A stretch of 64,000 nucleotides of DNA from Pseudomonas sp. LS.1a. GTDB taxonomy: Bacteria > Pseudomonadota > Gammaproteobacteria > Pseudomonadales > Pseudomonadaceae. Position 1 is the first letter of the stretch. Every line of letters starts with the position of its first letter. Shown here one piece after another: positions 260 to 16,926 of this stretch. The position numbers and the translations under genes are program-made. The notes below the pieces were generated by a model, which saw only the letters and a list, made by a program, of their open reading frames with translations, did no database searches and was not told the DNA's origin. Location of the stretch: contig NZ_CP092827.1 in NCBI RefSeq assembly GCF_022533585.1, forward strand, positions 3,698,001-3,762,000. Reading direction: 5' to 3'.

Positions 260-278
260 GAAGGCCCTCCAGAAATGC

Positions 279-299: not shown

Positions 300-321
300 C
301 TGTAAAAGGGTTGGCTCGCTG

Positions 322-669
322 TCAGCGAACGATGATGAATTGCGCCGCCAGGGCTTTCTCGGCATCGAGATCGAGGCCGGTCAGCAGCCCCTCGCTCACC
401 TCGGCCAAGCGCACTACCGCGCGCCCGCGCCGGGCTACGTCCGATTCGCCAACGGACGCAAACAAGATGCACTTGGCCGTCTCGCTGCCGTCAGCGGCCT
501 CTGGGTTGTACGGAGCGAATTGGCCGGAGGCAGTGAGCTGCCCAAGAAGCTGGCCGGCTACCAAGGCAGCACCAGGCGCCAGCTCAATGACTTCGCGGGA
601 GATCTTTCCTGCGCCCTCGGACAGCAGGAATTCACCGGCATGCACCGGTTCCACATAGGTTTTGCTCAT
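322..669 (-). CDS. Head decoration protein D (lambda gpD family)
   Basis: A 115-residue protein from ATG at 667-669 (MSKTYVEPVHAGEFLLSEG). The length and the pattern 'GEFLLSEG...ISRE...LAPGAALVAGQLLG' with C-terminal 'EKALAAQFIIVR' match the small trimeric decoration protein that clamps the expanded lambda-type capsid. The frame is open farther upstream, but an earlier start would run into the protease gene, which stops at 672. The neighbours are the head protease upstream and major capsid E downstream, the lambda C-D-E order. It is expected late in infection as a structural protein. Confidence 0.85.
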   Translation of the reverse strand: MSKTYVEPVHAGEFLLSEGAGKISREVIELAPGAALVAGQLLGQLTASGQFAPYNPEAADGSETAKCILFASVGESDVARRGRAVVRLAEVSEGLLTGLDLDAEKALAAQFIIVR

Positions 670-671
670 GC

Positions 672-1829: not shown

Positions 1830-3319
1830 GTTTTCCCCTTCTCGTCGGGCTCATCCGGCTCATCCGTAATGGCCGACAAGCTGCTGTAGTTGAGGCCCAG
1901 GTCCTTGGCCCGGGCGATATCTGCGGCGTTCTCTTCGTCCACGATTTCCGCATCTGTGCCGGAGCGCAGGCACATCTCCGTGCGCGAGGCGAAACCCGCC
2001 CCCACCTCGAGCATCCGCGACTGAACGTCTTGAACGGGATGGATGTAGGCCCAGCCCTGTGGCACCCACCGGGTGCGCAAGTACTCACGCCGCCGCAGGA
2101 CGTAGTCTTCCAGTTCCAACGCCCCGGCCAGCACCGCCATGTCCATCCATGCGGCTCGCACAGGGCGACACAACTGGTGGACATACACCTGGAACTGCAA
2201 CTGCTCCAAGCGGCGGCGGAACTCGGTGAGCACCACGCGAATCGCCCGGTCGTTTACGTCGCGCATGTCGCCAGTCATCAGCTCATAAGGCAGGCCCGCC
2301 CCTGCAGCTGCAGCCATGAGCTGCTGCCGCATGAAGTCTGGGTAGTTGTTGCCGCCATCGGGCGGGTCGGAGAATTCCACCTGTTCCCCCGGCCCGAGCT
2401 CCTGCATAGTGCCGGGCTCCAATGCCACCATCGGCGTGAACGCATCTCGGTCATGGACAACCGGTGCGCCAGTGAGCATGTCCATCGGCGGATGCCCCGG
2501 CCCTTCCGGCGCGGGCTTGCGAACGAAGCCCGCGAACAGGTTCGCCACTTCCTGGCGAAACAGCACTGCGTCGTCGTAGTTGTCCAGGCTCCGCAGACGT
2601 TTCAGGATCGGCGCGAGCCGAGGCACACCACGTAACTGGCCTGGTTCCAAGGGCTCGAAGATGTGCAACATCTGCTCGGCCGGGACGCGCACTAGAGGGT
2701 TGTAGCCGGCATTGAGCGAGGCCTTGTCGCTTGGGTGGTTGCGGTAGCACCAGTAAGCAACGCGCCGCCCTATGCTGTTGAACTCGATCCCGGCGCGGAT
2801 GACGTTGCCGGACCGCGTCACTTCGAACTTGTCGTGCGGGACGAATTCAGGTGCAAGGCACTGCACCTGCAGCGGGACCGCCAGTCCATCCTCCAGCCGG
2901 CGTGGCCGCAAGCGGACGAAACACTCACCTGATTGCTCGACCGTCCGCGCTACCAGCGCCTGCTGGCCGTAAAAGTCGGTGCGCTCATCCGCATCCGATT
3001 CGTCCACCCAATCCTCCCACAGCACCTGCATGGCCTTTCGCAGCGCCTTGTCGAGCAAGCGCGGTTGAGGCGTGATGCCGGTACCGATCAGGTTGCTGAC
3101 CCGTTTGTCGATGATGTTGCCCGCATACGGGTCGTTGCGCACCGCAGCCCGCGAGCGCGAACGCAGGTTGCGCAGGGCTGGCATGATCAGGCTGTTTGGC
3201 CCCGTATCAGGGGCATCCCAGTTAGAGGAGCGCCGCCCTTCGGCGGCGCCCTCGTAGCTGGCCTTGATGCGCTCCGGCACCAGCAGGCCAGAGCGTGTGG
3301 AGATATAGCGACCGCTCAC
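1826..3319 (-). CDS. Phage portal protein, lambda family
   Basis: A 497-residue lambda gpB-type portal, the ring at the DNA entry vertex of the head. The features seen are the early 'NLRSRSRAAVRNDPYAGNIIDKRVSNLIGTGI' region (given in part), 'YWCYRNHPSD', 'HIFEPLEPGQLRGVPRLAP' and 'RIEQLQFQ'-like helical stem residues (RRLEQLQFQVYVHQL) near residues 385-400. The length is normal for the family. It overlaps gpW by 4 bases upstream and the protease by 4 bases downstream, so these genes are translated as a coupled unit. Confidence 0.92.
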   Translation of the reverse strand: MSGRYISTRSGLLVPERIKASYEGAAEGRRSSNWDAPDTGPNSLIMPALRNLRSRSRAAVRNDPYAGNIIDKRVSNLIGTGITPQPRLLDKALRKAMQVLWEDWVDESDADERTDFYGQQALVARTVEQSGECFVRLRPRRLEDGLAVPLQVQCLAPEFVPHDKFEVTRSGNVIRAGIEFNSIGRRVAYWCYRNHPSDKASLNAGYNPLVRVPAEQMLHIFEPLEPGQLRGVPRLAPILKRLRSLDNYDDAVLFRQEVANLFAGFVRKPAPEGPGHPPMDMLTGAPVVHDRDAFTPMVALEPGTMQELGPGEQVEFSDPPDGGNNYPDFMRQQLMAAAAGAGLPYELMTGDMRDVNDRAIRVVLTEFRRRLEQLQFQVYVHQLCRPVRAAWMDMAVLAGALELEDYVLRRREYLRTRWVPQGWAYIHPVQDVQSRMLEVGAGFASRTEMCLRSGTDAEIVDEENAADIARAKDLGLNYSSLSAITDEPDEPDEKGKT

Positions 3320-3522
3320 AAGCCCTTACCTCCGTGATAGAGCCGAACCACGCGAGAGCGGCGACCAGCTGCCTGGGCCAGCTCGGTGCGGATCAGATCG
3401 CGGGCCTTGATGAGTTCGTCCACGGTCCGATATTCGACGGTGCGGTCGCTGTAGCGAACGATACGTTCGCCACGGGCAATCGCACCTTCGACAGCCGCGA
3501 GGTGTGCCTGGGTGTATGCCAT
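3316..3522 (-). CDS. gpW-like head-tail joining protein
   Basis: A 68-residue protein (MAYTQAHLAAVEGAIARGE...). The size, the N-terminal helix 'HLAAVEGAIARGERIVRYSDRTVEYRTVDELI' (key positions Ala, Gly, Val, Tyr) and the position between the large terminase and portal fit lambda gpW, which closes the filled head and prepares it for tail attachment. It lies 1 base after the terminase stop and overlaps the portal start by 4 bases. Confidence 0.85.
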   Translation of the reverse strand: MAYTQAHLAAVEGAIARGERIVRYSDRTVEYRTVDELIKARDLIRTELAQAAGRRSRVVRLYHGGKGL

Positions 3523-3523
3523 G

Positions 3524-5557
3524 TCAGCGTCTCTTCAGATAGCCACTGCTTGAGCTGCGGCGTTGCATTGGTTGAGGTGCCGGACGAGGCGGCGTTGGCG
3601 AGGCCGTAGGAGCGGGCCGGACTGGGCGCGGAGCCGGTAATTGCGACTCGACTTGAGCATCATCGTCGTCATCATCTTGCTCAACGGCCGACGGCTTTAC
3701 TGGTGTTGGCTCCTCGAACAGGTTCGCCTGGGCCAAGGCTTGGCGCAGCTTCTCCCAGTCCTGCTCGCCGTAACGATGCAGTCCGAGGTAATTCGCCATG
3801 GCCAGGTTGTAAACCATGAGGTCGAGCGCCTCGTTGCGGTCGGCCTTACCCTTGACCCACTCGATTCGCTTGTACCCTTTCACATAGCGGGCGATCTTGC
3901 GTTCAGCCACGCACTGCTGGAAGAACTCATCAGGCAGATCCCTCGGGAAATGCAGCGCACCAGGACCCGACTCGAAGCTGTAACGGTTGTAGATCCAATC
4001 CTTAGCGGTATCGGTACCAACCATCCACAGCTCGGCGCCGTTGCGTTCGGTCTGGCCCTTCCAGGTGACATCCACCAGAGAGGGCCGCTGGGCAATCACG
4101 GGCTTGCCCGGCTTACTCGCTCCCTTCAGCGCAAAGATGTTGCGCCAACGGCGTACACGGGTGAACTGGTAGACCTCATGGGTGTGATGACCACCAGAGT
4201 CGATACCGACAGCCAGGATGCCCAGGCTAACGCCGCTTGGATGGCGGTACCGGACCTTCAATCTCTCGTCCAGCAGATCCCACGTACGCTGGTCAGCCGG
4301 ATCGCCAGGAATAACCTGGTGATCAATGACCCACCGCTCCATGCCAGCACCGTAGCCCACCGTCATCGCCTCCAGACGGTTGGCTTGAACGTCGACGGCG
4401 CCAGTGATCACCAGCACGCCAACAGGCACGGTACCGAGGACATAATCCTCCTGCAGCGCTCGTGCCTGCAGGACTTCGGCCTTGGTCTGCTCGACCGCAC
4501 TGTCCCATACCTTCGCCAAGCGTGTGTTGTAGAACACCTGCATGGGCTCAAGGTCGCCTCGGTCCTGGGCACGCTTGGCCTTCTCGAATTGCTTGGCCAG
4601 ATCCGCCCATGAAGTCCAACCGAGCGGGGCATACAGAGCATTGAGGTGGAAACCAACCGTTTCACCGTCGCCCTTTGCGTGTGAGCGCCATTCCCCTTGG
4701 GCGAGCATCTCGCCCTTGTGGTGCTCCTCGATCAGTACATCGCAATCAGGTGAGGAGCACTTATAGTGGACGGTCTGGAAGTCAGCGGAATACAGCAGAC
4801 GCTCCCACTCCAGCACCTGCATATGACCGCAGGTTGGACAGGGCACGTAGTAATACCGCTGGTCGCTGGTCTCAAACAGATCAGCAATGCGTGAGGCACC
4901 CTTGATGGTCGGCGAGCTAGAGAAGTAGAACTTGGCATTGCGTCCAAAGGTACTGCCCCGCGTCTCTGCAAGATCGACGGGGTCACCTTCTTCATCGACG
5001 TCCACGTCCCAGCGGTCAATTTCATCGCCGTAGATGTATCGCGCAGCAAGCTCGGCCAGGTTGGAGGCCGAACCAGCGGTGGTAGCGTACAGCGTGCCGC
5101 CCTCGAACTCTTTGGTATCCATGGTGTTGCGGGCATCCCGGGATCGTGAAGCCGCCACACGCGCCTTCAATTCAGGCGTTGCGGCGATCGTCTTACCGAT
5201 CCGGGCCGACACCCGCTTGGCCAGGGCCAGGCTGGGCAGCAACGTCAGGATGTTGGAAGGTGCCATGTGGATCAGCGCCCCAATCCAGTTCAGGGCTATC
5301 TGCGTTTTCATCAGCTGCGAGGCGACCATCGTAATGACGCGCTTGCAGGGGTGCGCTGGCGAGAGGCAGCGCATGGGTTCACGGGCATACGGCGTCCGTG
5401 CTGTGCGGTATTTGCCGGGCTCGGCTGCACCGGTATCACGCGGGATCCGCATGTACTCGTCAGCCCATTCATCAACCCACAATTCAGGGTCGGGCGTTAG
5501 CCCCCGGCCATACGCTTCGCGGTACACCTTCGCACCGTCCGCGTATCCGGTGGGCAT
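3524..5557 (-). CDS. Terminase large subunit, GpA family
   Basis: A 677-residue packaging ATPase/nuclease of the lambda gpA family. The ATPase part shows the deviant P-loop region 'VASQLMKTQ' (about residues 78-86) and the acidic Walker B-like 'YGDEID' (about 176-181). A CPTC...C...C zinc-binding set (about Cys240, 243, 267, 272) follows. The second half carries the nuclease acidic residues, for example 'GAVDVQANRLE' and 'GIDSGGHHT'. The C-terminus is a Pro/Arg/Asp-rich low-complexity tail (a run of Asp near residue 630), as expected for the portal-contacting end. It cuts and packages DNA with the small subunit encoded just upstream. Confidence 0.95.
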   Translation of the reverse strand: MPTGYADGAKVYREAYGRGLTPDPELWVDEWADEYMRIPRDTGAAEPGKYRTARTPYAREPMRCLSPAHPCKRVITMVASQLMKTQIALNWIGALIHMAPSNILTLLPSLALAKRVSARIGKTIAATPELKARVAASRSRDARNTMDTKEFEGGTLYATTAGSASNLAELAARYIYGDEIDRWDVDVDEEGDPVDLAETRGSTFGRNAKFYFSSSPTIKGASRIADLFETSDQRYYYVPCPTCGHMQVLEWERLLYSADFQTVHYKCSSPDCDVLIEEHHKGEMLAQGEWRSHAKGDGETVGFHLNALYAPLGWTSWADLAKQFEKAKRAQDRGDLEPMQVFYNTRLAKVWDSAVEQTKAEVLQARALQEDYVLGTVPVGVLVITGAVDVQANRLEAMTVGYGAGMERWVIDHQVIPGDPADQRTWDLLDERLKVRYRHPSGVSLGILAVGIDSGGHHTHEVYQFTRVRRWRNIFALKGASKPGKPVIAQRPSLVDVTWKGQTERNGAELWMVGTDTAKDWIYNRYSFESGPGALHFPRDLPDEFFQQCVAERKIARYVKGYKRIEWVKGKADRNEALDLMVYNLAMANYLGLHRYGEQDWEKLRQALAQANLFEEPTPVKPSAVEQDDDDDDAQVESQLPAPRPVRPAPTASPTPPRPAPQPMQRRSSSSGYLKRR

Positions 5558-5561
5558 AGGT

Positions 5562-6143
5562 TCAGCTCTGTGTCATGGCTTGGTTGAGATCGGCGCCGCT
5601 CATCTTGGCCGCGTCTTCGAAGACTTGGCGGAAGGCGCCCGTCAGGCGTTTTTCGATTTCCCAGGAATCGCTCATGCCCGCCAGCTCGGCAGCGAGCTGC
5701 GGAGCAAGACCGAACATCAGGTCTCGGAGCGTACGGCCAGCTGCGAAAGCGGCGTCTTCCACCGCCTTGCGCTCAACCAGGTTGCCCTGAACTTTGTTGA
5801 ACTCCGCCTCGGCTAGCTGGGCAAGGTAGAACTCGCGATGCGCCCTTGCCTTCTGGAAGTCCAGGCCCTTGCCTGGCTGCTGGACCAGTGGCTGCACCGC
5901 AGGTGTGTCGCCGCCTGGTTGTAGGTGGCTGCGCACATCCCGCTCCACCCGGTTTTCTTCATGCCGGGCCGCGACGGCTGCCTTGCTGGGATCGGCTGAC
6001 TCGGCCAGTAGCGCCTCAGTGGCCACAACATCGACCTTGCCGTCGTCCGCGAGTACCAAGCGGTCCTGGCTGGCCAGTTTGGAAACGTAGGATTTCGACC
6101 ATCCGCGTCGGGCGGCGAACTCCGATTTGGTCAAGTAGATCAT
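5562..6143 (-). CDS. Terminase small subunit, Nu1-like
   Basis: A 193-residue protein from ATG at 6141-6143; an in-frame TTG two codons upstream (6149) is an alternative. The N-terminus 'MIYLTKSEFAARRGWSKSYVSKLASQDRL' contains the winged-helix DNA-binding motif of Nu1-type subunits (key residues Ser7, Ala10, Gly13, Ser15, Val18, Leu21). The middle is a charged helix (residues about 95-125), and the C-terminal part contacts the large subunit. The gene stops 4 bases before the large terminase and sits right after a candidate cos region (6150-6310) that carries repeated GTGAACTG boxes. Confidence 0.85.
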   Translation of the reverse strand: MIYLTKSEFAARRGWSKSYVSKLASQDRLVLADDGKVDVVATEALLAESADPSKAAVAARHEENRVERDVRSHLQPGGDTPAVQPLVQQPGKGLDFQKARAHREFYLAQLAEAEFNKVQGNLVERKAVEDAAFAAGRTLRDLMFGLAPQLAAELAGMSDSWEIEKRLTGAFRQVFEDAAKMSGADLNQAMTQS

Positions 6144-6149
6144 GCTCAA

Positions 6150-6310
6150 AAGTCCAGTTCACCCAATTGATTCAAGGGGTTAACCAGTTCACCGCAGTTC
6201 ACTAAGCTGGTAAACCTCCCGCTAACGAAGAGCCGCGGGTTTCCCGTCCCGTACCCCGGCCAAGTCGCCAGGGTCCCCGGCCTCCGCCGTATTTCCGACC
6301 GGTTCACTGA
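6150..6310. other. Candidate cos packaging site with repeated GTGAACTG boxes
   Basis: This is the space between holin and small terminase, where lambda-like phages hold cosN/cosB. On the minus strand the box GTGAACTG occurs at 6155-6162, 6185-6192 and 6195-6202. A variant (GTGAACCG) occurs near 6299-6306, at the end of the holin gene. An imperfect palindrome GGTTTACCAG...CTGGTTAACC spans about 6179-6217. The boxes could be binding sites for the small terminase, like lambda R sites. No cohesive-end cut site can be proven from sequence alone. Confidence 0.45.
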
Positions 6311-6651
6311 CCTGGCTCGCCACTGCGTGGCGGCATCTCGCACACTCCCAGGCGCTTGGCGGCCCAGCGCTCGTACAAGCCGATGGCGACATCGGCACCA
6401 GCCATTGCGGTCAGGCAACCGAATGCCGCCGAAGCCCAAATCGATGCGCCGGCGGAGTACAGCAACATGATCGTTGCCATCCCGCAGACCACGCAGGCTC
6501 CGGACCGCAAGGCGATACGCCGAACCAGCGCCCAGCCACGAACACCCGCCTTGTCCGCTCGCCACATCTCGCCAGATACCCCACCGACCAGGGCGAGAGT
6601 GATCACGAGCCAGACCGGCATCTCGGCAAGCGCTTGTTGTTCGTTCGTCAT
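6304..6651 (-). CDS. Phage holin (class with several membrane helices)
   Basis: A 115-residue membrane protein from ATG at 6649-6651 (MTNEQQALAEMPVWLVITLALVGG). Three hydrophobic stretches are visible: about 11-27, 49-66 and 70-90. An amphipathic charged tail ends in 'KRLGVCEMPPRSGEPGQ'. This layout fits lambda S/HP1-like holins, which make inner-membrane holes at the time of lysis. The frame is open 80 codons farther upstream, but that stretch crosses a terminator and has no fitting start. GGGGAA lies 5 bases before the ATG. No endolysin gene is next to it in the window. Confidence 0.8.
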   Translation of the reverse strand: MTNEQQALAEMPVWLVITLALVGGVSGEMWRADKAGVRGWALVRRIALRSGACVVCGMATIMLLYSAGASIWASAAFGCLTAMAGADVAIGLYERWAAKRLGVCEMPPRSGEPGQ

Positions 6652-6667
6652 CCCGTTCCCCAAATGC

Positions 6668-6692
6668 AAAAAACCCGGCGCGGTGGCCGGGT
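6668..6692 (-). terminator. Rho-independent terminator ahead of the holin (tR'-like)
   Basis: AACCCGGC and GCCGGGTT form a stem around GCGGTG. On the minus strand the stem is followed by six T residues. It separates the Q-like gene and a candidate late promoter (6746-6774) from the lysis/packaging genes, so late genes would need antitermination or read-through. Confidence 0.8.
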
Positions 6693-6745
6693 TTGCTGTG
6701 TTTGGCGAGCTGCTTTCTGCGCCCGCACGTCTCGAAGATGGGTAC

Positions 6746-6774
6746 TTTTTACAGGTCGATTCCGGTGGCAGCAA
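6746..6774 (-). promoter_or_regulatory. Candidate late promoter (pR'-like)
   Basis: On the minus strand TTGCTG (6769-6774) and TAAAAA (6746-6751) are 17 bases apart, downstream of the Q-like gene and about 55 bases before the terminator at 6668-6692. The order promoter-terminator-holin resembles lambda pR'-tR'-S. The -10 box is weak. Confidence 0.35.
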
Positions 6775-7161
6775 GCAAGTTTTAATGCCACCCGACAATA
6801 AGGGGGAAATGCCTAGGGAATGTCTGGAAAATGTCGGGGGAATACACCACTCCGGCTTAGCTTCACTTCGGCGCTGCCCCACAGGTCCCAAAGGGTGCGG
6901 TGATGGTGGGACTTGTTGAGCCCTTGAAAATCAAGGGCTGTCCCACTGTCTAACTGTTTTAACCCTTTCCCGTGTAAAGAGAGAGATTAAAAGCACGCTG
7001 CGCGCAACGCGCGCGTAACGCGCTGCATACGCCCTATGTGCGCGCCTTCGTGCGAGTGGTGGGACGGTGGGACAGCCCGCGAATAGCGCGGGCTTGAGCT
7101 TGGACCACCTGCAAAAAACGTGGTAGTCCAGTGGTTGGACGGTGGGACCATGCGTGGCGGA

Positions 7162-7524
7162 TCATGCAGCTCGCCCCATGAGCAAGCCTGCGATGCAGAC
7201 GTGCGCCTCATGCAAGCGCTTGTAGTACGTGTCCCGGCTACACCCACAGTGGCGGTACTTCTGGTACAGCTCACTGTCGGCGTTGCAGTAATGCTCAGAG
7301 ACTACCAGGTAGAGCTCCGGTGCCAGATGCTTGTTCACGATGATCTCGATGTCCGCAGACTCGTCCAGCAGCACCTTGCTGCCTCGAGTACCACGGACAA
7401 GATCACCCTTACACTCAATCAACAGGCCGAGCATGCTACCAACACCGCCTGCCGAATGACAGGGCTCAGGTGCATGAAGCTCTTGAGCCCACAACTTCAG
7501 CATCTCATCGATATGTTTGATCAA
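7162..7524 (-). CDS. Q/DUF1133-like late gene regulator
   Basis: A 120-residue protein. The TTG at 7522-7524 is chosen as start because AGGAGG lies 7 bases upstream and the TTG overlaps the stop of the primase gene (TTGA). The ATG at 7503 has no good site. The C-terminal third 'YQKYRHCGCSRDTYYKRLHEAH' (Tyr, Cys, Ser, Arg, Thr, Tyr-Tyr, Arg-Leu-His) resembles the sigma-region-4-like helix-turn-helix of phage antitermination protein Q/DUF1133 proteins. It is the last gene of the replication operon and is followed by a promoter, terminator and lysis gene, the place of lambda Q. The function is inferred from motif plus position. Confidence 0.6.
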   Translation of the reverse strand: MIKHIDEMLKLWAQELHAPEPCHSAGGVGSMLGLLIECKGDLVRGTRGSKVLLDESADIEIIVNKHLAPELYLVVSEHYCNADSELYQKYRHCGCSRDTYYKRLHEAHVCIAGLLMGRAA

Positions 7525-9737
7525 AAGCAGTCCTCCTTCGGCGCTGGCGGTTGTTGCTCCAGGGCGCTGGTGCGGCCCCAGCCCTCGGGCTTCTGGTACG
7601 CCCAGGGCCGCTTGCCACTCTTCGGAAGCGCGGCGAGCCGTCGACGCCGCCAACCCAGGCGGTGCATGATCGACCCCACACGCATCTGCTCGGGCTTGCC
7701 CCAATGGCCGGGATCCAGGTTGAGCGCCTGACCCAACACCTCGCTCCCGGTGACCGTCTCCCCGGCCTGCGATTCCTCCAGCCATTTGAGGATCGGTCCT
7801 TCCCATTCATCAACCACGAAGCGCTCTTCCTGCTCGGTAGTGAACAGTTCTTCCTCCTCGCGGGTGACCCACCAGATGTCACCGGCCTGGTAGCAGAACA
7901 TGGCCTCGGCCCACAGCTGGTCACGGACCCGGCGCAACGCCTCCAGGTCGACCTTGACGCAGGCGACCGGCCAATAACGCCGATTACCGGTGGCGTCCTT
8001 GAGGTATTCATCTTGGTTGGTGGTGCCCGCGAAAACACACTGGCGTGGCACATCGCTCGTTCTTCGCCCATAGCTTTCGCGGTAGGTGTCGATGGAGGCC
8101 GAGAAGAACTGCTTGGCCTTGGTGCTCTCAGCCTTGTTGAAGCTGTCCAGTTCACCCAGCTCGACGATCCATTTGCCCCGGATCGCCTGGAACGCATCCT
8201 TGTCGCCCAAGGTAAACGGCGTGTCCATGAACCATTCGCCACCAAGGATGCCCAGCGCCGTGGACTTACCCGCGCCCTGCGCACCCTCGAGGATCATCAC
8301 CGCATCCGCTTTGCAGCCCGGCTTCATCACTCGGGCCACCGCCGAGATCATCCAGCGCTTACCGACCTTGGCGCTGTACTCATTGCGGGGCACACCGAAG
8401 ATTTCATGCAGCCAGCGCTCAAGGCGTGGCACGCGATCCCATTCCAGCTTGGCCAGGTAGGTGCAGACAGGATGGAAGGCGTTGTCGTGCGCCACAACAC
8501 TAACAGCCTCGACCACATGCGAGGCCTTGACGCGGAGGCCCTGCTGGGCCAGCCACTTCATTACACGCATATCATCGATGTCGCTCCACTCCCCCGGCAC
8601 GCCACCATAGGGCGCCGCCCGGAGGCGCATGATCTTCGAGCTGAAGGCGTTGTAGCCGATCACCCCGCTCCACCGCTCATCGTTGGCCAGGATCAGCTCG
8701 ACGTTCTGCATGTGGGCAATAAGAGCGCCGCTCTCGGTCCTGGCCAGCATGTCTTTCCAGCCACCAGTAGCGGGGGGCTTGATCACCGCCGCGACCTGCC
8801 GACGAACTGCCTCGAGGCCTTCGGCACAGTGCAGGTCATTGAAGTCAGTCCACTTGGCCTCGCGATCGCCCGAGAAGATCGGGCCGACCACTTGGCCACC
8901 GACCACCACCGCCGCGTTGTTGGCCTTTTCCTCACCGGGGTTCCAGGGCTCACCTGTCGGTCGCTTGGTCTTCCAGTCATCATCGCGGCAGATGATGATG
9001 GACCGACCAGGGAAGCGCTCGCGAATGTGCTTGGCGACTGCCATCAAGTTGCCTGCATCGAAGGAGATCGCCACTGCCTGCGAAGTCGCCATGTGCAGGC
9101 TAGCGCCGGTGGCGTACCCCTCACACACCAGCACCGGCTCGCCGGGCTCAGGGTGGCCGCCGATCATGTGGAACGCCCCCTCCTTCGCCATGCCATGTGG
9201 CCAGTAGGACTTGTCGCGCCCGGTATCCGCTTGGGGCTCGGGATAAATAACTTGCAGGCCGACGATAGCGTTCTGGGCGTTCTGCATGGGGACGAGTACC
9301 GCGCCTGACTTTGGCGCATAGCGGACGCCGAAGCCGACCACCTGCTTGCGATCAAGGTAGGCACTTCGACCCTTTTCCGGCATGCGCTTGAACAGCGCTT
9401 CCGCACGCTTGGCCGCACGACGCGCCGCGTTGGCGGCGACCTCCGCAGCCCGGCGCTTGCCGTCAGCCTGCCGGGCACGCATCACTTCACGCTCTTCCGG
9501 GGTGAGGCCGCGACCGTCGGTTTTTACCTTCTGCGTTTCACCGAGGCGCCAGTCACCGAAGCTGCCGAAGATCAGGGCTTGCCCCTTGGCCGTGAGGTGC
9601 TCATGCAGGACATACCAGCCGTTCTTCTCCTTGCCCTTGTCATCCTTAGTGCGACAGCGGGTCAGTTTGCCGAAGATCAAGGGCTGGTCAGGCTGCAGGC
9701 CGTAGTCGTGCAGTTGGTCGAGTACCTTATCGAGCAT
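7521..9737 (-). CDS. Toprim primase / VapE-type P-loop helicase fusion
   Basis: A 738-residue replication protein. The N-terminal part (about 1-120) is charged and Ala/Arg-rich. A Toprim domain follows, with the glutamate in 'VLVCEGYATG' (about Glu206) and the acidic 'RDDDW' (about 251-255). The C-terminal half is a VapE/DUF5906-type superfamily 3-like ATPase with Walker A 'EGAQGAGKST' (484-493), Walker B-like 'KWIVELGELD' and 'FAGTTNQDEYLKD' (sensor 1 Asn). Such fusions prime and unwind phage DNA. The start overlaps the upstream zinc-finger gene by 11 bases. A non-coding region with repeated GGTGGGAC boxes lies downstream and could be its target (inference). Confidence 0.85.
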   Translation of the reverse strand: MLDKVLDQLHDYGLQPDQPLIFGKLTRCRTKDDKGKEKNGWYVLHEHLTAKGQALIFGSFGDWRLGETQKVKTDGRGLTPEEREVMRARQADGKRRAAEVAANAARRAAKRAEALFKRMPEKGRSAYLDRKQVVGFGVRYAPKSGAVLVPMQNAQNAIVGLQVIYPEPQADTGRDKSYWPHGMAKEGAFHMIGGHPEPGEPVLVCEGYATGASLHMATSQAVAISFDAGNLMAVAKHIRERFPGRSIIICRDDDWKTKRPTGEPWNPGEEKANNAAVVVGGQVVGPIFSGDREAKWTDFNDLHCAEGLEAVRRQVAAVIKPPATGGWKDMLARTESGALIAHMQNVELILANDERWSGVIGYNAFSSKIMRLRAAPYGGVPGEWSDIDDMRVMKWLAQQGLRVKASHVVEAVSVVAHDNAFHPVCTYLAKLEWDRVPRLERWLHEIFGVPRNEYSAKVGKRWMISAVARVMKPGCKADAVMILEGAQGAGKSTALGILGGEWFMDTPFTLGDKDAFQAIRGKWIVELGELDSFNKAESTKAKQFFSASIDTYRESYGRRTSDVPRQCVFAGTTNQDEYLKDATGNRRYWPVACVKVDLEALRRVRDQLWAEAMFCYQAGDIWWVTREEEELFTTEQEERFVVDEWEGPILKWLEESQAGETVTGSEVLGQALNLDPGHWGKPEQMRVGSIMHRLGWRRRRLAALPKSGKRPWAYQKPEGWGRTSALEQQPPAPKEDCF

Positions 9738-9945
9738 GACGAGCCCCTTCCTTCTCGTTCAAGACCTGGCAATCCGTGCAACGCATGCAGCCTGGGGCAG
9801 CTAACCGGCGTGCCTGAGAGATTGGCTCATCACAATCCACGCACTCCTCAAGAGAGACGCGCACGGGGGCAGGCTTGCGGGCTGCCAGCGCCAAGTCCAA
9901 GTGCCACTGGGCGCGATCATTCGCCAAATCAGCAATATCAGCCAC
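9727..9945 (-). CDS. TraR/DksA-type C4 zinc finger protein
   Basis: A 72-residue protein starting with GTG (9943-9945), which overlaps the stop of the CII-like gene by 8 bases; no ATG lies nearby. The C-terminal half has the four-cysteine finger 'CVDCDEPISQARRLAAPGC..C..C' spaced as in TraR/DksA family proteins. The helix before it ('LANDRAQWHLDLALAARK') would reach into the RNA polymerase secondary channel. F-plasmid TraR and phage relatives copy the effect of DksA and ppGpp on host transcription. The same role is likely here. Confidence 0.8.
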   Translation of the reverse strand: MADIADLANDRAQWHLDLALAARKPAPVRVSLEECVDCDEPISQARRLAAPGCMRCTDCQVLNEKEGARHAR

Positions 9946-10456
9946 GACGCGCCCCCCGAGTGGTCTGGTTGACGTATTCGGCACGGCGGTACATGCCGAG
10001 CAAGCCCTGGATGCCCCGGAAGACTTGCTGTTGAATCTCCGCGAGCTCCTGATCGTCGACCTTGCCGTCGCCGATGCTGCGTGCCCAGGTTTCGGACAGA
10101 TTGGCGACCTGGCGGAAGAACGCCGCAAGGCCCATGGTCAGGGTTTCGGGAACGTCATGGCTGTAGGCGCCGGAGAGCTCTTGCCAGATGGTGTCGCCGA
10201 CCAGAGCATGCACCGAGTCGAGGAGCCGCGGATCTTTGGTCAGCTCGAGGATCTCGCCGAATTCCTGGACATTGACAATATGGGTGGGATGGGTGGGGGA
10301 CAGCTTGTGCTGGAGTGTGGTGGCGTTGCGGCCAGTGGTGGCCGCGATGGCAGCAGCACCGCCTGGGTAGTCACGTACAGCATGGTACAGCGCGAGTTCG
10401 AGCGGCAGAACTTCGCGCTTGGCGCGCTCGAGGCAGCTCATTGCGGTTCGGCTCAT
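9938..10456 (-). CDS. Phage CII-type regulatory protein (Phage_CP76 family)
   Basis: A 172-residue protein from ATG at 10454-10456 with AGGA 7 bases upstream; an ATG five codons later (MSCLERAKRE) is possible. The N-terminal half 'HAVRDYPGGAAAIAATTGRNATTLQHKLSP' shows the helix-turn-helix typical of the CII/CP76 family found in Pseudomonas prophages. The C-terminal half is helical ('MGLAAFFRQVANLSETWARSI'). It lies after cro on the same strand, as cII does in lambda, and probably acts in the lysis/lysogeny choice. A 570-base structured region separates it from cro. Confidence 0.8.
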   Translation of the reverse strand: MSRTAMSCLERAKREVLPLELALYHAVRDYPGGAAAIAATTGRNATTLQHKLSPTHPTHIVNVQEFGEILELTKDPRLLDSVHALVGDTIWQELSGAYSHDVPETLTMGLAAFFRQVANLSETWARSIGDGKVDDQELAEIQQQVFRGIQGLLGMYRRAEYVNQTTRGARRG

Positions 10457-10485
10457 GGCATTGTCCTTGTCGGTAGCCAGTGCCT

Positions 10486-11042
10486 GCGGCGTGCAGTGGT
10501 GGTGCATGCACCGCATAGCGGTTGAGAGAGTAAATAGCCGGTTAGCGGAGGCCTATAAGGCCTCGGGCCGGGGCGTCTATCCATCTATTGCCCCAGGCGA
10601 AGCAACCACCTCCCGTGGTGAAGGAGGTGACACCCAGGCTCCCTGCCTGGGCGGTGCGATCAAGGCAAACAGACCTATGTGGTGTGTCCGCATACCTGTC
10701 ACGCGGCCCGGCAGCATCGTGGTGCTATTGCTGGGCTTTGGAGGCGATCACTTGCCTCCGTTCTGGCACATGGCATTACGCCATGAAGGCTGCCAGTGCC
10801 AGCGACGAGCGGTGGTGTTACACTCGCCGTGTGGCTTGAGAGAGTCACTGCCGGTGCAGTCCAAGGACTACACCTATAACGCCGCCCATCTGTGGTGGAG
10901 AAGCGGCTCCTGGCACGCGTGTCAGGATCTACGTGGTCAAGGACAGTTGTTTCGTGGTGTGCGCCACATCCTTGAACGCGGCCCGGTAGCACTGTGGTGG
11001 TACTACCGGGGGAAACGAGGCGGCCTTTAGGCCGCTTTTTTT
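10486..11042 (+). ncRNA. Predicted structured RNA: hairpin array with repeated GTGGTG loops
   Basis: GTGGTG occurs eight times on the + strand: 10496, 10615, 10679, 10719, 10812, 10892, 10954 and 10994. Seven lie in the loop of a hairpin with its own stem. The stems are GTGCA/TGCAC (10491-10511), CACCTCC/GGAGGTG (10607-10629), CAGCA/TGCTG (10712-10733), CGACGAG/CTCGCCG (10803-10829, one mismatch), GCCGC/GCGGC (10881-10907), TCAAGGA/TCCTTGA (10937-10975) and CCCGGTAG/CTACCGGG (10982-11010). Plain hairpins lie between them (10548-10564, 10633-10651, 10740-10759, 10763-10796, 10847-10860, 10908-10927). A strong + strand terminator ends the region. The copies fall in all three reading frames, so they are not a protein repeat. 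The promoter was not found. The strand choice rests on the terminator and on two G-U pairs that work only on +; the mismatch at 10805/10827 would be G-U only on minus. Confidence 0.6.
11020..11042 (+). terminator. Rho-independent terminator, + strand
   Basis: GCGGCCT (11020-11026) and AGGCCGC (11029-11035) form a tight stem followed by seven T residues. There is no T run on the minus strand. It overlaps the 3' end of the minus-strand cro-like gene, so it must serve a + strand transcript coming from 10.5-11.0 kb. Confidence 0.85.
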
Positions 11043-11266
11043 CCGCCTGAACCTTGATCAGGAAGTAGGCGGTAATGCTGCAAAACAGACTCAATCGTTA
11101 CGGCCCCTTGACTCTGCTCAGCTAAAGCGCGCATCAGCGAAACGCTTGGATCTTTGCTGGCGTAGCGAACGTGTATACGAAGGTAGTTAGCCGAGATACC
11201 GCACCGCTCAGCATACGCCCCCATCCCTTCTGTACCGAGTCGATCAATGTACTGTCGAAGTTTCAT
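11027..11266 (-). CDS. Cro/YdaS-like helix-turn-helix regulator
   Basis: A 79-residue protein from ATG at 11264-11266 with AGGAGG 7 bases upstream. 'LRQYIDRLGTEGMGAYAERCGISANYLRIHVRYASKDPS' contains a helix-turn-helix (Ala-Tyr-Ala-Glu-Arg-Cys-Gly-Ile-Ser-Ala-Asn-Tyr-Leu) of the YdaS/Cro type, and the tail is Gly/Lys-rich. It is divergent from the CI-like gene with a perfect palindromic operator between them, the standard place of cro. Its promoter (11287-11315) has this operator in its spacer. Role: turning down the repressor and early genes on induction. Confidence 0.8.
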   Translation of the reverse strand: MKLRQYIDRLGTEGMGAYAERCGISANYLRIHVRYASKDPSVSLMRALAEQSQGAVTIESVLQHYRLLPDQGSGGKKAA

Positions 11267-11286
11267 AGACTGCCTCCTTGCAGCCA

Positions 11287-11315
11287 AAGATAACCTTTAA
11301 GGTTAACTTTTACAA
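11287..11315 (-). promoter_or_regulatory. PR-like promoter with operator TAACCTTTAAGGTTA
   Basis: On the minus strand TTGTAA (11310-11315) and TATCTT (11287-11292) are 17 bases apart and lead into cro. The spacer contains the perfect 7+1+7 palindrome TAACCTTTAAGGTTA (11291-11305). Nearly the same operator sits in the spacer of the + promoter at 13053-13080. A half-site GGTTAAC lies at 11341-11347 in front of the repressor gene. Confidence 0.7.
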
Positions 11316-11366
11316 TACCCAAGAGGACATTCACCTACAGGGTTAACATGTTCAGAATCCTTACCC

Positions 11367-12017
11367 ATGAGAATCTCTGACACGCGACTACAAAACCTAC
11401 GGCGCCTGATGGCTGAACGAAGCCTGCGTCTCGCTCAGCTCGCGGAAAGGCTGGAAAAGGCCCCTGCACAGGTAAGCGCTTTCGCTGGTAGAAACCCGAC
11501 CAAAGGCATTGGTGACCAGATAGCTCGGGAAATTGAAAAGGCATTGGCCCTACCGACAGGCTATTTAGACATCCCCTCGAGGCTGAATAGCGAGCCTACG
11601 AATGCCACCGTTGTTAGCCATACAGGCAGGAAGCTACCGGTTATTGGCTCCATAGCAGCCGGTGCATGGTGCGATAGCGCAGCTCATTTCGACCCCCGCG
11701 AGGCTGAGGAATGGATTGATGCACCAGGCCCAGTCGGCCCACGAGCATTCATCCTGAGGGTGGAAGGCGTGAGCATGGAGCCCAAGTTCATTGAAGGAGA
11801 TAAGGTCGTGATCGATCCTTCTCTCGAGGCGTTGCCTGGACACTTCGTTGCAGCGAAACGATCAAGCGATCAAGCGACGACCTTGAAGCAACTCCGCCAG
11901 GAAGGAAACGAACAATATTTGTATGCGCTGAACCCAGACTGGCCTAATCGAATAATTAAGATGACGGAAGAATGGAGTATATGCGGGCGCGCTCGCTGGA
12001 AAATATCTGACCTTTAA
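11367..12017 (+). CDS. CI/LexA-type phage repressor with S24 autoprotease domain
   Basis: A 216-residue protein. The N-terminal helix-turn-helix region is 'MAERSLRLAQLAERLEKAPAQ' (about 15-35). The C-terminal S24 domain has the Ala98-Gly99 cleavage pair in 'IAAGAW', catalytic Ser136 in 'GVSMEP' and Lys174 in 'TTLKQL'. RecA-stimulated self-cleavage would inactivate it after DNA damage and induce the prophage. It most likely binds the TAACCTT..AGGTTA operators on both sides. It is followed 13 bases later by the AT-rich membrane protein gene and should be transcribed with it. Confidence 0.92.
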   Translation: MRISDTRLQNLRRLMAERSLRLAQLAERLEKAPAQVSAFAGRNPTKGIGDQIAREIEKALALPTGYLDIPSRLNSEPTNATVVSHTGRKLPVIGSIAAGAWCDSAAHFDPREAEEWIDAPGPVGPRAFILRVEGVSMEPKFIEGDKVVIDPSLEALPGHFVAAKRSSDQATTLKQLRQEGNEQYLYALNPDWPNRIIKMTEEWSICGRARWKISDL

Positions 12018-12030
12018 GGAGACTTAGGTC

Positions 12031-13044
12031 TTGCCAGAACAGAACAATGATAAGGATGCAGTTGGGCACGTTCGTAATCCGCTAACAGTGATATCAAGAT
12101 TCGCAGCGCTAGCCGAGATTAGCGGAACGGCTGTCCTACCCTTTATAGAGCCTGAAAATCAAGCTACGTTTATATGGTTCTTGATGCTTTTCCCGGCACT
12201 CTTAGTAATCCTTTTCTTCCTCACCCTAAACTACAACCACAAAACCCTTTATGCGCCGTCCGACTACAAAAACCAGAACCATTTCTTAAGCCTTTTCGGT
12301 ATAGCCTCAACCGACGAACGCCAAAGTAAATTGGAAGCAGAGTTGGATGAAGGGATCGCTGAACCGACGACCGATTCAACCAATCCACTGGACCCTGAAG
12401 GCCCTGTGATGCAGGAGTCCAAGCCCGACGAACCACGATCGGACGGACTGGATGCAGATTTGGGCGACTCTTCCAAGACCCAAGACGGTGAAGGAGTGAA
12501 TCCAGTCAATGCAACCAACGAACCCGCACAGTCTTTAAAATCTATAAGCTTGGACTCGCTTAAAGAAACGCGGAGAAAAAGCCTCAAAAAAAATCTCGAA
12601 CTAATTGAAAACACCGCAATATTTAAGCTCTGCAGAGCCACCAAAATCCAATTTGACAGACATTTAAAAATAGAAACAGGGGATGCCGACAAACCTATAA
12701 TTTTTGATGGTCTATCCATCAGCACAAATCGTATCAATGCCGCAGAGGTCAAATTATTTGATACCGAAAAATTCAGTATCAACCGGCTGATTCCCACTTT
12801 GAGGGAAGCAAGCAGAGCGGCAGAAATTGTGCAGAAGTCGCTTGGAGCAGATTTTGTTTTTCACTTGGTGGTCGTCCTAAGCGAACATATCAATGGACAG
12901 CATGCCGACGCTATCGCATCCAGTATTCAACGAGTCGCCAACGCTTATGGGTTGACGACCAATGTCTACCTCATAGAGACAGCCAACCTCCTGACCACAA
13001 AAGCCAATTTTACGCTTTACACAAGGAATGACCCGAAAGGTTAA
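12031..13044 (+). CDS. Unknown AT-rich membrane protein in the rex position
   Basis: A 337-residue protein starting at TTG (12031) with AAGGAG 10 bases upstream. I do not recognise a family. The N-terminus holds a weakly hydrophobic segment (about 18-40) and a clear membrane helix 'FIWFLMLFPALLVILFFLTL' (about 48-68). A long acidic Pro/Asp/Ser-rich linker (about 100-170) and a soluble mixed alpha/beta domain (about 175-337) follow, with core strands such as 'FHLVVVLSE' and 'VYLIET'. The base composition is clearly more AT-rich than the flanking phage genes, which suggests a separately acquired cargo gene. It is co-oriented with the repressor, so it should be made in the lysogen. Superinfection exclusion or phage defence is a reasonable guess from this position (lambda rexAB), not from sequence. 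Confidence 0.75.
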   Translation: MPEQNNDKDAVGHVRNPLTVISRFAALAEISGTAVLPFIEPENQATFIWFLMLFPALLVILFFLTLNYNHKTLYAPSDYKNQNHFLSLFGIASTDERQSKLEAELDEGIAEPTTDSTNPLDPEGPVMQESKPDEPRSDGLDADLGDSSKTQDGEGVNPVNATNEPAQSLKSISLDSLKETRRKSLKKNLELIENTAIFKLCRATKIQFDRHLKIETGDADKPIIFDGLSISTNRINAAEVKLFDTEKFSINRLIPTLREASRAAEIVQKSLGADFVFHLVVVLSEHINGQHADAIASSIQRVANAYGLTTNVYLIETANLLTTKANFTLYTRNDPKG

Positions 13045-13052
13045 CCAACGCC

Positions 13053-13080
13053 TTGACAAGTTAACCTTTGAGGTTATGAT
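13053..13080 (+). promoter_or_regulatory. PL-like promoter with operator TAACCTTTGAGGTTA
   Basis: TTGACA (13053-13058), a 16-base spacer and TATGAT (13075-13080) make a near-consensus promoter. The operator TAACCTTTGAGGTTA (13062-13076) lies in the spacer and overlaps the -10 box. A further palindrome GGTTAACC sits at 13039-13046. It faces the gene run ending in the integrase, so the repressor should silence that run in the lysogen. Confidence 0.85.
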
Positions 13081-13116
13081 CACCCTCACTCTTCCACCAC
13101 AGAGTGAGGCAACTCC

Positions 13117-13290
13117 ATGCACACCACTGCATCACTGCACGTCCATCCGGCCGCTGCATCTACTGATCTGATTTTCAAAATCCGCCGCCTAGCCCGGCAA
13201 CACGGCTGCGAATTTTCCGCCACCAAGCGCCCCGTGACAGCCCCCACTACCCGCCCAGTGACCCCAGACGATGGGGGGCATGCAGCATGA
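13117..13290 (+). CDS. Small phage protein, first gene after the PL-like promoter
   Basis: A 57-residue frame from ATG 13117 with GAGG 7 bases upstream, ending in an ATGA overlap with the next gene (stop 13288-13290, next start 13287). The middle 'TDLIFKIRRLARQHGCEF' is basic and helical. The rest is Pro/Thr-rich. No family is recognised. The support is the strong promoter just upstream, a good ribosome binding site and translational coupling. Confidence 0.6.
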   Translation: MHTTASLHVHPAAASTDLIFKIRRLARQHGCEFSATKRPVTAPTTRPVTPDDGGHAA

Positions 13291-13598
13291 GCTACGCACT
13301 GAGCCACAACGCTTTCGCCTGCCTCAAGGCGCAGACCAACCTCTCCGGGCAATTCACCCACATCCTCCGCGACGAGGCGAACGGTGCCTGCGCCAAGGCC
13401 ATGCTGCAGACCGAGGTCTATCTCGACCAGCTCGATGTGGTGATCCGCATGGGCTCGACGGTGAACACTCTGACGCTGCCAGCGAACAGCCTCTCCAGTG
13501 CGAGAAAGATCGCAGTCCACCTCGAGGCGATCGCCAATGGGCAGGTTGATACTGCCGCCATGTCTTCGACCGATCAATTGCTGGCTGACGCGGCGTAG
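13287..13598 (+). CDS. Hypothetical phage early protein
   Basis: A 103-residue protein (MSYALSHNAFACLKAQTNLS...) with mostly helical sequence. 'LRDEANGACAKAMLQTEVYLDQLDVVIRMG' and 'SARKIAVHLEAIANGQVDTAA' look like a helical bundle. The function is not recognised. It overlaps the previous gene by 4 bases and is followed 9 bases later by the KilAC-like gene, with a good GGAGG site between. It is part of the PL-like operon. Confidence 0.7.
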   Translation: MSYALSHNAFACLKAQTNLSGQFTHILRDEANGACAKAMLQTEVYLDQLDVVIRMGSTVNTLTLPANSLSSARKIAVHLEAIANGQVDTAAMSSTDQLLADAA

Positions 13599-13607
13599 GA
13601 GGAAACC

Positions 13608-13892
13608 ATGGAACGCAACCTGGCACAAACCGCCAAGCTGTTCGGGATCAGCCGCAACGAACTGATCTGCTTGATGCGCGAGAACGAGCTGCTGACCGAG
13701 CGCAACCTGCCTCGCTACCCCACCCGGGACCGCGAGTATCTGCGTATCAAGGAGGGACAGTGGTTTCACCCGACCTCAGGCATGCAGTACAGCATGTCGA
13801 CCCGCGTAAAACAGGCCGGGATCCCTTGGCTCGCAGAGCGCCTGCAGCTGCAGCTTCCGACACCACCGGAAGACAAGCGTCATGCAGCCTAG
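13608..13892 (+). CDS. KilAC/antirepressor C-domain-like small protein
   Basis: A 94-residue protein with GGAGG 6 bases before the ATG. 'LFGISRNELICLMRENELLT' and 'REYLRIKEGQWFHPTSGMQYSMSTRVKQAGIPWLAERL' match the C-terminal KilAC (ANT) domain of phage antirepressors (start with initiator-like helix-turn-helix, then the YL...G.W....G......V...G..W). The usual N-terminal antirepressor domain is missing. Stand-alone copies are common in early operons and probably bind DNA or partner proteins. The exact role is unknown. Confidence 0.75.
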   Translation: MERNLAQTAKLFGISRNELICLMRENELLTERNLPRYPTRDREYLRIKEGQWFHPTSGMQYSMSTRVKQAGIPWLAERLQLQLPTPPEDKRHAA

Positions 13893-15685: not shown

Positions 15686-16750
15686 ATGCGCAACAGGAAG
15701 GCATCGAACAAGGACCTGCCGCCTCGGATGCTGCGGCGAGTTCGCAAGCTGAAGAGCGGCAAATTGTGGGTCGGGTACTACTACAACGGGCGGGATGCAG
15801 ACGGAAATCGGCAGGAAATTCCGTTGGGGACAGATCTCGCGGAGGCCAAGCTTGAGTGGGCACGCTTGGAGCACAAGGCAGCACCGAGGGTAATGTCAAC
15901 GATGGCCGAGCTGTTTGACCGGTACGAGCGTGACATCATCCCGGCAAAGGCGCCACGCACTCAGAAAGACAACAAATACGAACTGGAGCGCCTGCGCACG
16001 GCGTTTGCCGACGCTCCCATTGAGGCCATCACTCCTCCGGTCGTCGCGCAGTACCGGGACGCCCGCACCGCGAAGACTCGGGCAAACCGGGAAATCGCGC
16101 TGCTTTCACACGTATTTACCGTGGCCATGGAGTGGGGATTCGCAGATCGAAATCCGTGCCTGGCGGTTCGTCGCAACAAGGAAAAGGTACGCGACTTCTA
16201 CGCTGCCGACGATGTCTGGGACGCAGTGTACTCGGAGGCCGACCAAGGCCTGAAGGATGCCATGGACCTCGCCTACTTGGCCGGCCAGCGCCCAGCCGAC
16301 ACGTTGAAGTTCAGCACCGTCGACCTCGACGAGGACTACCTGTGGGTCGGCCAGAACAAGACTGACAAGAAGCTTCGCATCCGCCGGCACATCAATGGCG
16401 AGTCGACCGGCCTGGGCCTGTTCATCGAAGCGCTCCTAGAGAGACGCAAGCTGCAAGGCGTGCGGAACTCACGCCTCATCACCAACGACTCCGGCCTGCG
16501 CATGAGCTGGGAAATGCTGAGGAATCGCTTTAGTGAGGCGCGTGACAAGGCGGCACGCAAGCTGATCGCCGATGGCAACACAGACCTGGCCACCAAAGTT
16601 CGGCAGTTCCAGTTCCGCGATATCCGACCGAAGGCGGCATCGGAGATTGAGGACATTAGCCACGCCAGCCGACTGCTCGGACATTCCAAAGAGGAGATTA
16701 CCAAGCGCGTTTATCGCCGCGTCGGCGAGGTGGTCAGCCCGACCAAATAG
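15686..16750 (+). CDS. Tyrosine recombinase (phage integrase)
   Basis: A 354-residue integrase. An arm-binding region (about 14-50, 'SGKLWVGYYYNGRDADG') is followed by a core-binding SAM-like domain (about 70-165) and a catalytic domain. Catalytic residues in view are Arg202 ('AGQRPADTLKF'), Arg314 in 'FRDIRPKA' (Arg311 takes the place of the usual His), His333 ('LGHSKE') and the nucleophile Tyr343 ('VYRR'). The gene ends about 100 bases before tRNA-Cys, so the attachment site lies in or next to that tRNA. Confidence 0.95.
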   Translation: MRNRKASNKDLPPRMLRRVRKLKSGKLWVGYYYNGRDADGNRQEIPLGTDLAEAKLEWARLEHKAAPRVMSTMAELFDRYERDIIPAKAPRTQKDNKYELERLRTAFADAPIEAITPPVVAQYRDARTAKTRANREIALLSHVFTVAMEWGFADRNPCLAVRRNKEKVRDFYAADDVWDAVYSEADQGLKDAMDLAYLAGQRPADTLKFSTVDLDEDYLWVGQNKTDKKLRIRRHINGESTGLGLFIEALLERRKLQGVRNSRLITNDSGLRMSWEMLRNRFSEARDKAARKLIADGNTDLATKVRQFQFRDIRPKAASEIEDISHASRLLGHSKEEITKRVYRRVGEVVSPTK

Positions 16751-16812
16751 TGGGCTGATGCGGAAACGATGCCCGATGATGCGGAAATGATCGGCGTTTC
16801 TAGACCTCAAAG

Positions 16813-16841
16813 AAAAACCCCGCAGACGTTAATCTGCGGGG
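16813..16841 (-). terminator. Terminator of tRNA-Cys
   Basis: CCCCGCAGA (16818-16826) pairs with TCTGCGGGG (16833-16841). On the minus strand it is followed by TTTTTCTTT, so it ends the tRNA transcript. It lies between the tRNA and the integrase. Confidence 0.8.
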
Positions 16842-16852
16842 CTTTCGAATGG

Positions 16853-16926
16853 TGGAGGCCGAGGTCGGAATCGAACCGGCGTAGACGGATTTGCAATCCG
16901 GAGCATAACCACTTTGCTACTCGGCC
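16853..16926 (-). tRNA. tRNA-Cys (anticodon GCA), prophage attachment locus
   Basis: The minus strand gives a 74-base cloverleaf with encoded CCA: acceptor GGCCGAG.., anticodon loop TTGCAAA and T loop GGTTCGATTCC. The integrase stop lies 102 bases away, which marks this tRNA as the integration locus. The core repeat cannot be located because the other junction is outside the window. Confidence 0.93.

Follow-up and report, generated by a model that had tools for sequence, protein, structure and literature searches.

The window, the whole 64,000-nucleotide stretch of Pseudomonas DNA that was analysed, holds the early region of a prophage. On its minus strand a right operon carries a Cro-like gene, cII, a DksA/TraR-like gene and a primase gene, while a left operon on the plus strand runs up to an excisionase-like gene and the integrase (Table 1). 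The Cro-like gene was named from its position, as it gave no family match and no viral relative of its protein was found, and the promoter PR was placed by inference from the position of cro. The longest cII ORF starts at 10516 but the likely cII start is 10456. A gene for a PA0613-family protein (NF051483; 7162-7500, minus strand) lies 3' of the primase gene and is followed by the terminator-like hairpin at 6694-6671 and then by the terminase genes. The scan that listed this hairpin did no better than chance (7 hits, this one among them, against 8.1 in shuffles) and returned none between the array and the primase start. Between cI and PL, a 337-aa protein with no assigned function (phrog_26238; 12031-13044, plus strand) is encoded in what we take to be the place of lambda rex. 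At the far end of the left operon (15686-16926), the integrase gene end adjoins a tRNA gene on the opposite strand (16856-16926), which is likely the attachment site.

The space between cro and cII is filled by an array of hairpins. On the plus strand of 10486-11042 (557 nt) we counted nine overlapping matches to GTGGTG at eight sites, namely 10496/10499 (one GTGGTGGTG site), 10615, 10679, 10719, 10812, 10892, 10954 and 10994, and no CACCAC. The first of these sites falls within the N-terminal extension of the longest cII ORF. In 5000 dinucleotide shuffles of the same stretch GTGGTG had a mean of 0.56 and a maximum of 5, and none of the shuffles had nine. The initial annotation, made from the letters of the window alone, had claimed this one-strand enrichment and is confirmed in it, as it is in the stems that it named (those of B1, C2 and D2), in the weak stem at 10679 and in the plus-strand terminator (T7) at the end of the region, where a hairpin with a T-run is found. 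The basic unit of the array consists of four hairpins, A, B, C and D, with plain hairpins in between, and the window has two such units.

Table 1. Features of the early region, in positions of the window
Feature	Position	Strand	Remarks
Terminator-like hairpin	6671..6694	-	sense of the right operon, between early genes and terminase
Toprim-VapE primase/helicase	7521..9737	-	right operon, downstream
DksA/TraR-like C4 zinc finger	9727..9948	-	3' of cII; co-conserved with array and cII
CII-like regulator	9938..10456	-	phrog_101, PF06892; first gene 3' of the array
Hairpin A1	10485..10515	-	loop with CACCACCAC in the sense RNA
Hairpin B1	10607..10629	-	stem CACCTCC/GGAGGTG
Hairpin C1	10660..10705 (limits approximate)	-	weak stem; CACCAC at 10679-10684
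Hairpin D1	10707..10735	-	CACCAC at 10719-10724
Hairpin A2	10803..10829 (limits approximate)	-	CACCAC at 10812-10817
Hairpin B2	10881..10907	-	upper stem TCT/AGA, loop CCACCAC; same type as the PL hairpin
Hairpin C2	10937..10975	-	stem TCAAGGA/TCCTTGA
Hairpin D2	10982..11010	-	stem CCCGGTAG/CTACCGGG
Hairpin with T-run (T7)	11020..11042	+	strand opposite cro-cII, at the array end
Cro-like gene	11027..11287	-	named from position; 5' of the array
CI-like S24 repressor	11367..12017	+	divergent from cro-cII
Predicted PL promoter	13053..13080	+	TTGACA-N16-TATGAT, 11 of 12 consensus
Left hairpin	13084..13109	+	CCTCACTCT-TCCACCAC-AGAGTGAGG; nine pairs, 26 nt; at or adjoining +1 of the left early transcript
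HVHP, conserved 57-aa ORF	13117..13290	+	phrog_35204/phrog_13491, function not assigned; first left-operon gene; candidate partner protein

Conservation, folding and strand of the array

We scanned viral contigs with the CII protein and kept the best 80 of 376 relatives. All of these best 80 have at least three GTGGTG upstream of cII in the same orientation, and at most one CACCAC each; four sites are present in 61 of the 80, the range being 3 to 11. GTGGTG occurs at least once at 69 of the 71 cII loci in species genomes; the exceptions are L163, with a flank of 76 nt, and L173, where the cII match begins only at residue 56. The viral and species-genome sets with enough flank were combined, leaving out two short-flank loci, and 146 of the resulting 149 cII-linked loci have at least three ACCAC on the sense strand in the 340 nt upstream of cII, the three that fall short being L034, L173 and L181. 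The mean in this interval is 5.3 on the sense strand versus 0.05 on the opposite strand.

One array unit is present in most of the best 80 of 376 viral cII loci, and L037 has about two and a half; overall, two to about eleven CCACCAC-type hairpins are found between cro and cII. Phages whose cII is 92-98% identical (L032, L033 and L037 compared with the window) bear one, two or about two and a half units. The copy number of the units changes rapidly, since L032 and L033 have a single unit and yet a cII that is 98% identical to that of the window.

Distant relatives, including Pseudomonas indica (L176), the Halomonadaceae loci L179-L181 and the phages vB_HmeY_H4907 (Halomonas) and vB_Pae_U5 (Pseudomonas), keep the loops on stems that differ. 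Some further divergent viral contigs also keep them, some with only two such motifs. All of 31 divergent loci have at least two sense ACCAC in 450 nt, and in 27 of them at least one falls within a hairpin loop of the fold, while in the other four no loop of the fold holds a sense ACCAC; only 6 of the 31 pass the strict rule for the left hairpin described below. In the Halomonas phage H4907 (L303, 4206-6697) two annotated genes, for a PriCT-2-type protein and a primase, stand at the place of the primase gene, and the array, cII and the DksA-like gene are kept. A search by pattern gave 120 viral hits, 57 of them without a cII match. Two of these 57, L215 and L222, proved to be array sequence close to where a contig stops; we disregarded the rest, which had the look of repetitive coding DNA or of chance matches. 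A DNA-level search against named phages gave no match.

The stems of the array covary. RNAalifold on 27 aligned B-C-D stretches predicted 26 pairs, of which 15 have changed on both sides with pairing kept in at least one sequence, and in the loops of B, C and D every one of the 27 stretches has GTGGT. The idea that stems vary around kept loops, which the initial annotation had formed from one sequence, therefore holds across homologues.

It fared differently with the strand. In folds of 30 chosen homologous arrays the sense (minus) CACCAC lies wholly in hairpin loops in 108 of 159 instances, against 11 of 159 for GTGGTG on the plus strand. In minimum-energy folds of the window array the motif is wholly within a hairpin loop in 5 of 9 cases on the minus strand and 1 of 9 on the plus strand, so that the plus-strand stems which had been proposed exist but seldom present the motif in a loop; the same measure over the rest of the window gives 7 of 92 for the minus-strand motif and 0 of 92 for the plus. 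Part of this contrast arises because GUGGUG pairs more readily. A count of GU versus AC pairs showed no strand preference, with 43 for the plus and 47 for the minus strand when helices were chosen without strand bias by a helix finder requiring Watson-Crick pairs in 60% of rows, and 37 versus 34 in another count. The tRNA control for this wobble count gave 4 GU and 1 AC from just 5 tRNAs, which is too small a sample. We conclude that the active strand is probably the minus strand, read from cro to cII, and that the earlier preference for the plus strand was probably wrong.

The plus strand nevertheless has features of its own. A T-run follows the array in 141 of 146 loci, which speaks for a plus-strand RNA of the kind first proposed, and the G-U pairs of the terminator helix are one-sided, 57 to 0 for the plus strand, in a count from our first helix finder, which mixed real and constant columns. 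Both would suit an antisense RNA that ends at 11042 and meets the cro-cII message by kissing GUGGUG and CACCAC loops, and so would stems without strand bias, as expected if both RNAs must fold. We consider such an antisense RNA very unlikely, however. Its motifs would rarely be looped, the T-run is missing in vB_Pae_U5 and L179-L181, a perfect antisense requires no fixed loop, and the hairpin at PL would be left unexplained. Further, promoter scans listed no sigma-70-like site in 1-11400 and none on the plus strand of 10300-11042, though the scan also missed PR and is blind to a CII-dependent promoter. The terminator itself may shield cro from antisense transcription; it was not among the hits of simple terminator scans, perhaps as the stem can continue into the T-run.

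At the cII end of the array, the consensus fold pairs the region of the cII Shine-Dalgarno sequence long-range with the cro-side end of the element (alignment columns 6-9 with 303-306), and in this model the whole array might close as one domain over the cII start. The cII ribosome site lies outside any loop-bearing hairpin. Synonymous-site conservation in cII gave no clear promoter footprint, being 0.71 in the first 8 codons, where the neighbours of the start codon weigh in, versus 0.57 overall.

A hairpin with the same loop at PL

When the flanking stems of every GTGGTG in the window were scored, the best score was found on the opposite DNA strand, at 13095. This is the left hairpin, which begins 4 nt 3' of the -10 box of a promoter-like site that is the only one on the plus strand of 10300-13700 and that we take, by its sequence, to be the expected PL. 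CACCAC loops thus sit in the sense RNA of both early operons, in the left hairpin and in the cro-cII array. The plus-strand scaffold RNA and the OOP-like antisense of the initial annotation gain no support from this: the motif of the PL hairpin is on the other DNA strand, which fits a sense orientation in each operon, and on the plus strand of the array it is rarely looped.

The left hairpin is followed by the HVHP ORF. Among 88 loci chosen by this ORF, which make the fair count for the left loop, a CACCAC hairpin lies at most 60 nt upstream in 74; 12 of the remaining 14 have a hairpin with a changed loop (TACCAC, AACCAC or GCCAC), and L132 and L135 have no such hairpin at the matched place. 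Our other list of left hairpins was selected by CCAC loop and folding, with 23 rows hand-chosen, so the invariance of the loop there is partly by choice. Conversely, of 84 loci with the strict left hairpin, an HVHP start lies within 60 nt in 78 and elsewhere in 2, and the contig end cuts the remaining 4. A left-side CACCAC hairpin was found in 86 of 145 loci, a number in which many flanks stop before PL and some weak hits may be chance. In the window a second CACCAC (13122-13127, plus strand) with a 5-bp stem overlaps the HVHP start (ATGCACACCAC); since it is missing in vB_Pae_U5 and Haddon, it may merely mirror the MHTT codons.

HVHP matched no Pfam or NCBIfam family, no solved structure, no known RNA-binding family and no N family, and its structure model is a beta-alpha-beta fold of low confidence (pLDDT 70.5, pTM 0.44). 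A search for phrog_13491 returned 0 of 369 genomes of the class, with controls that were also 0, and is thus uninformative. In the members inspected, the 3' arm of the left hairpin bears GAGG or GGAG about 8 nt 5' of the HVHP ATG. This likely Shine-Dalgarno sequence (13101-13119, plus strand, in the window) is placed in the hairpin arm in Pseudomonas and Halomonas members alike, and by sequence the PL hairpin may hide the HVHP ribosome site.

The main alternative to the antitermination reading set out below, which we propose only tentatively, is that an early protein, HVHP or a different one, attaches to the left hairpin and thereby obstructs the ribosome site of its own message, and that the cro-cII array is a sponge for this protein which couples the two operons. 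The placement of GAGG or GGAG and the close spacing of strict left hairpin and HVHP start would suit such translational autoregulation, and the many copies in the array would suit titration. However, HVHP belongs to no known RNA-binding family and has a weak structure model; no loop-bearing hairpin contains the cII ribosome site, though the consensus fold pairs this site long-range; and in L159 the HVHP is nearly the same as in loci with a TTACCAC loop, yet the loops of L159 are CACCAC.

The two sites travel together. When the HVHP of phage vB_Pae_U5 was used to find contigs, 35 of 35 had the left hairpin together with the array and cII. We searched 298 genomes of Pseudomonas, the genus of the window, for the strict left-hairpin pattern. 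It was present in 27, one of them the genome of the window itself, and in every one of these the same contig holds array DNA at a distance of 1.1-5.1 kb; another 20 genomes have an array match but lack the strict left pattern. Compared with the window protein, cI is about 28 to 82% identical, and often there is no match for cI or for cro, while array, cII, the DksA-like gene and primase stay together, so that the two RNA sites are kept through the exchange of immunity genes.

A primase match is present in all 111 loci that were examined for neighbours. This, with the lack of strand bias in the stems, would suit an element acting as DNA, for example one at which extruded hairpins serve the Toprim-VapE primase as a replication origin or for priming. 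Such a role appears extremely unlikely to us, as the second member of the pair stands at PL, about 2 kb off in the window, and the Halomonadaceae keep the loops with a primase just 27-36% identical over long matches. In the one case of this kind, Marinobacter phage PS3, a primase relative (47%) occurs without a CII match or array in two stretches.

The loops at the left and array sites tend to change jointly, if not strictly, which in sequence terms fits one shared partner. The B loop is TTACCAC in 11 loci, perhaps one clade, and in 10 of the 11 the left loop has changed too. The changed-loop loci, in which an array hairpin (B or another) has a TACCAC-type loop and, L147 and L418 apart, the left loop differs too, are L133, L137, L141, L146, L147, L148, L153-L155, L160 and L164, and also L014, L415, L418 and L430. 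Of these, L415 and L014 represent two other lineages, both with TACCAC in the left loop; the array has two GTGGTA loops in L415, and in L014 one GTGGTA hairpin beside its GTGGTG hairpins. Exceptions go both ways: L147 and L418 have a left CACCAC with a B loop TTACCAC, and in L037 and L114 the left loop has changed and the B loop has not. These linked changes suggest a changeable partner, and they argue against a titrating RNA for a host RNA-binding protein, such as RsmY/Z is for RsmA. The many equal loops on a single RNA would agree with that explanation, but the loops are CACCAC and not GGA, and the PL hairpin is single and promoter-proximal, so we regard a host-protein sponge as highly improbable.

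The hairpin pair as a putative early antitermination signal

The cro-cII array is a real, conserved and covarying RNA element and one half of a left/right pair. We hypothesize, by analogy and at a probability of roughly 0.5, that the paired hairpins are a nut/put-like early antitermination signal, because lambda nut and HK022 put have the same arrangement, with a sense-strand site at PL and another between cro and cII. In its favor we also count the sense orientation of the motif, the linkage of the two sites and their persistence through exchange of the immunity genes, the covarying stems, the looping of the motif on the sense strand, the joint loop changes and the N homologue reported as not found in phage YA3. 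A nut/put-like element on the minus strand had been a fallback idea in the initial annotation, and it is this idea that gains support, strengthened further by the PL hairpin, whose loop is the same and which is sense in the left operon. In this view two cis-acting RNA sites form a pair, the right one in the cro-cII gap and the left one at the start of the left early transcript. In the nascent RNA leaving RNA polymerase the hairpins would recruit a factor, be it HVHP or some other phage protein, a protein of the host, or RNA polymerase itself, and the elongation complex would become termination-resistant. Early transcription could then extend to the primase and past it in the right operon and as far as xis and int in the left operon. 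The model for this proposal is the way in which lambda nut and HK022 put sites work, and in Pseudomonas a nutR/putR-like site would have been multiplied to give the array. Since a single site is enough for lambda and HK022, the antitermination reading has to explain the many copies in some other way. Similarly, the left hairpin fits translational control equally, because the likely Shine-Dalgarno sequence of HVHP lies in it. Also against the antitermination reading are the GU-versus-AC counts without strand preference, a PR placed only by position, the absence of a boxA-like GCTCTTW from nearly all right leaders, the scan that listed no terminator between array and primase start, the exceptions to joint loop change, and the divergent loci in which no sense ACCAC is looped or the strict left-hairpin rule is not passed.

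A more speculative reading, which we would not favor as it stands, joins these parts into a new early antitermination system of Pseudomonas and Halomonas phages. In it the functional N would be HVHP, small and not rich in arginine, which would read the CCACCAC hairpins of the two early leaders and regulate its own translation as well. The right site would have been multiplied into a tandem array, and the length of that array, which differs among phages whose cII is nearly identical, may determine how strong early transcription is.

Rfam identified only tRNAs in the window at curated scores, the best local match having 21.8 bits against a gathering score of 50. Among the matches listed by a search of open-access PMC, no title or abstract described such an element. 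The relevant parts of the H4907 paper name the CII and DksA-like genes and no RNA element (PMC10580944), and the passages of two other Pseudomonas phage papers covered by a word search held nothing relevant (PMC10305613, PMC8508860). On how temperate Pseudomonas phages pass early terminators, the pertinent part of the account of P. aeruginosa phage YA3 reports no N homologue but a candidate ORF in its place (PMC7326022). The present data give a precise, widespread and simple candidate signal together with a partner site and a candidate protein. If the antitermination reading is true, an RNA recognition hairpin would here have been multiplied into an mRNA-leader array, which would be unusual.

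The nutL and nutR sites of lambda lie in both early operons, their core is a short hairpin that adjoins a boxA, and a small first gene just after the left site encodes the arginine-rich N, which acts in both antitermination and translational control. The likeness here is a hairpin core in both early leaders and a small conserved ORF after the left site, and HVHP occupies what we take to be the position of lambda N. The differences are the CCACCAC loop, the predicted beta-alpha-beta fold (low confidence) of HVHP in place of an arginine-rich peptide, and boxA: a boxA-like GCTCTTW is absent from 146 of 149 sense right leaders (present in 3), and the PL leader of the window has one partial ACTCTT. 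RsmY and RsmZ, the sponges of the Csr/Rsm system, likewise present one repeated loop motif on many hairpins. That motif is GGA in the loops of a free sRNA, whereas here the fixed loop is GTGGTG/CACCAC and the hairpins stand in cis on mRNA leaders. Lambda OOP-type antisense RNA has its terminator on the strand opposite the cII message, as is also the case here; it differs in that a promoter was not found here by a scan that also missed PR, and in that the paired PL element is on the other strand.

The put sites of HK022, which antiterminate without a phage protein by way of the beta-prime zinc-binding domain, offer a further comparison. As set out in the relevant parts of the published description, putL follows PL closely and putR is located about 270 nt beyond the start of PR, both act as stem-loops in the nascent RNA, and HK022 is without an N-like factor (PMC9378689). 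Sites in sense downstream of both PL and PR are found here as well, with PL placed by scan and PR by inference. Each put site, however, is about 70 nt and has two long stem-loops of another shape, while in the element described here the left site is a single hairpin of 26 nt and the right site a series of two to about eleven, with a fixed CCACCAC-type loop.
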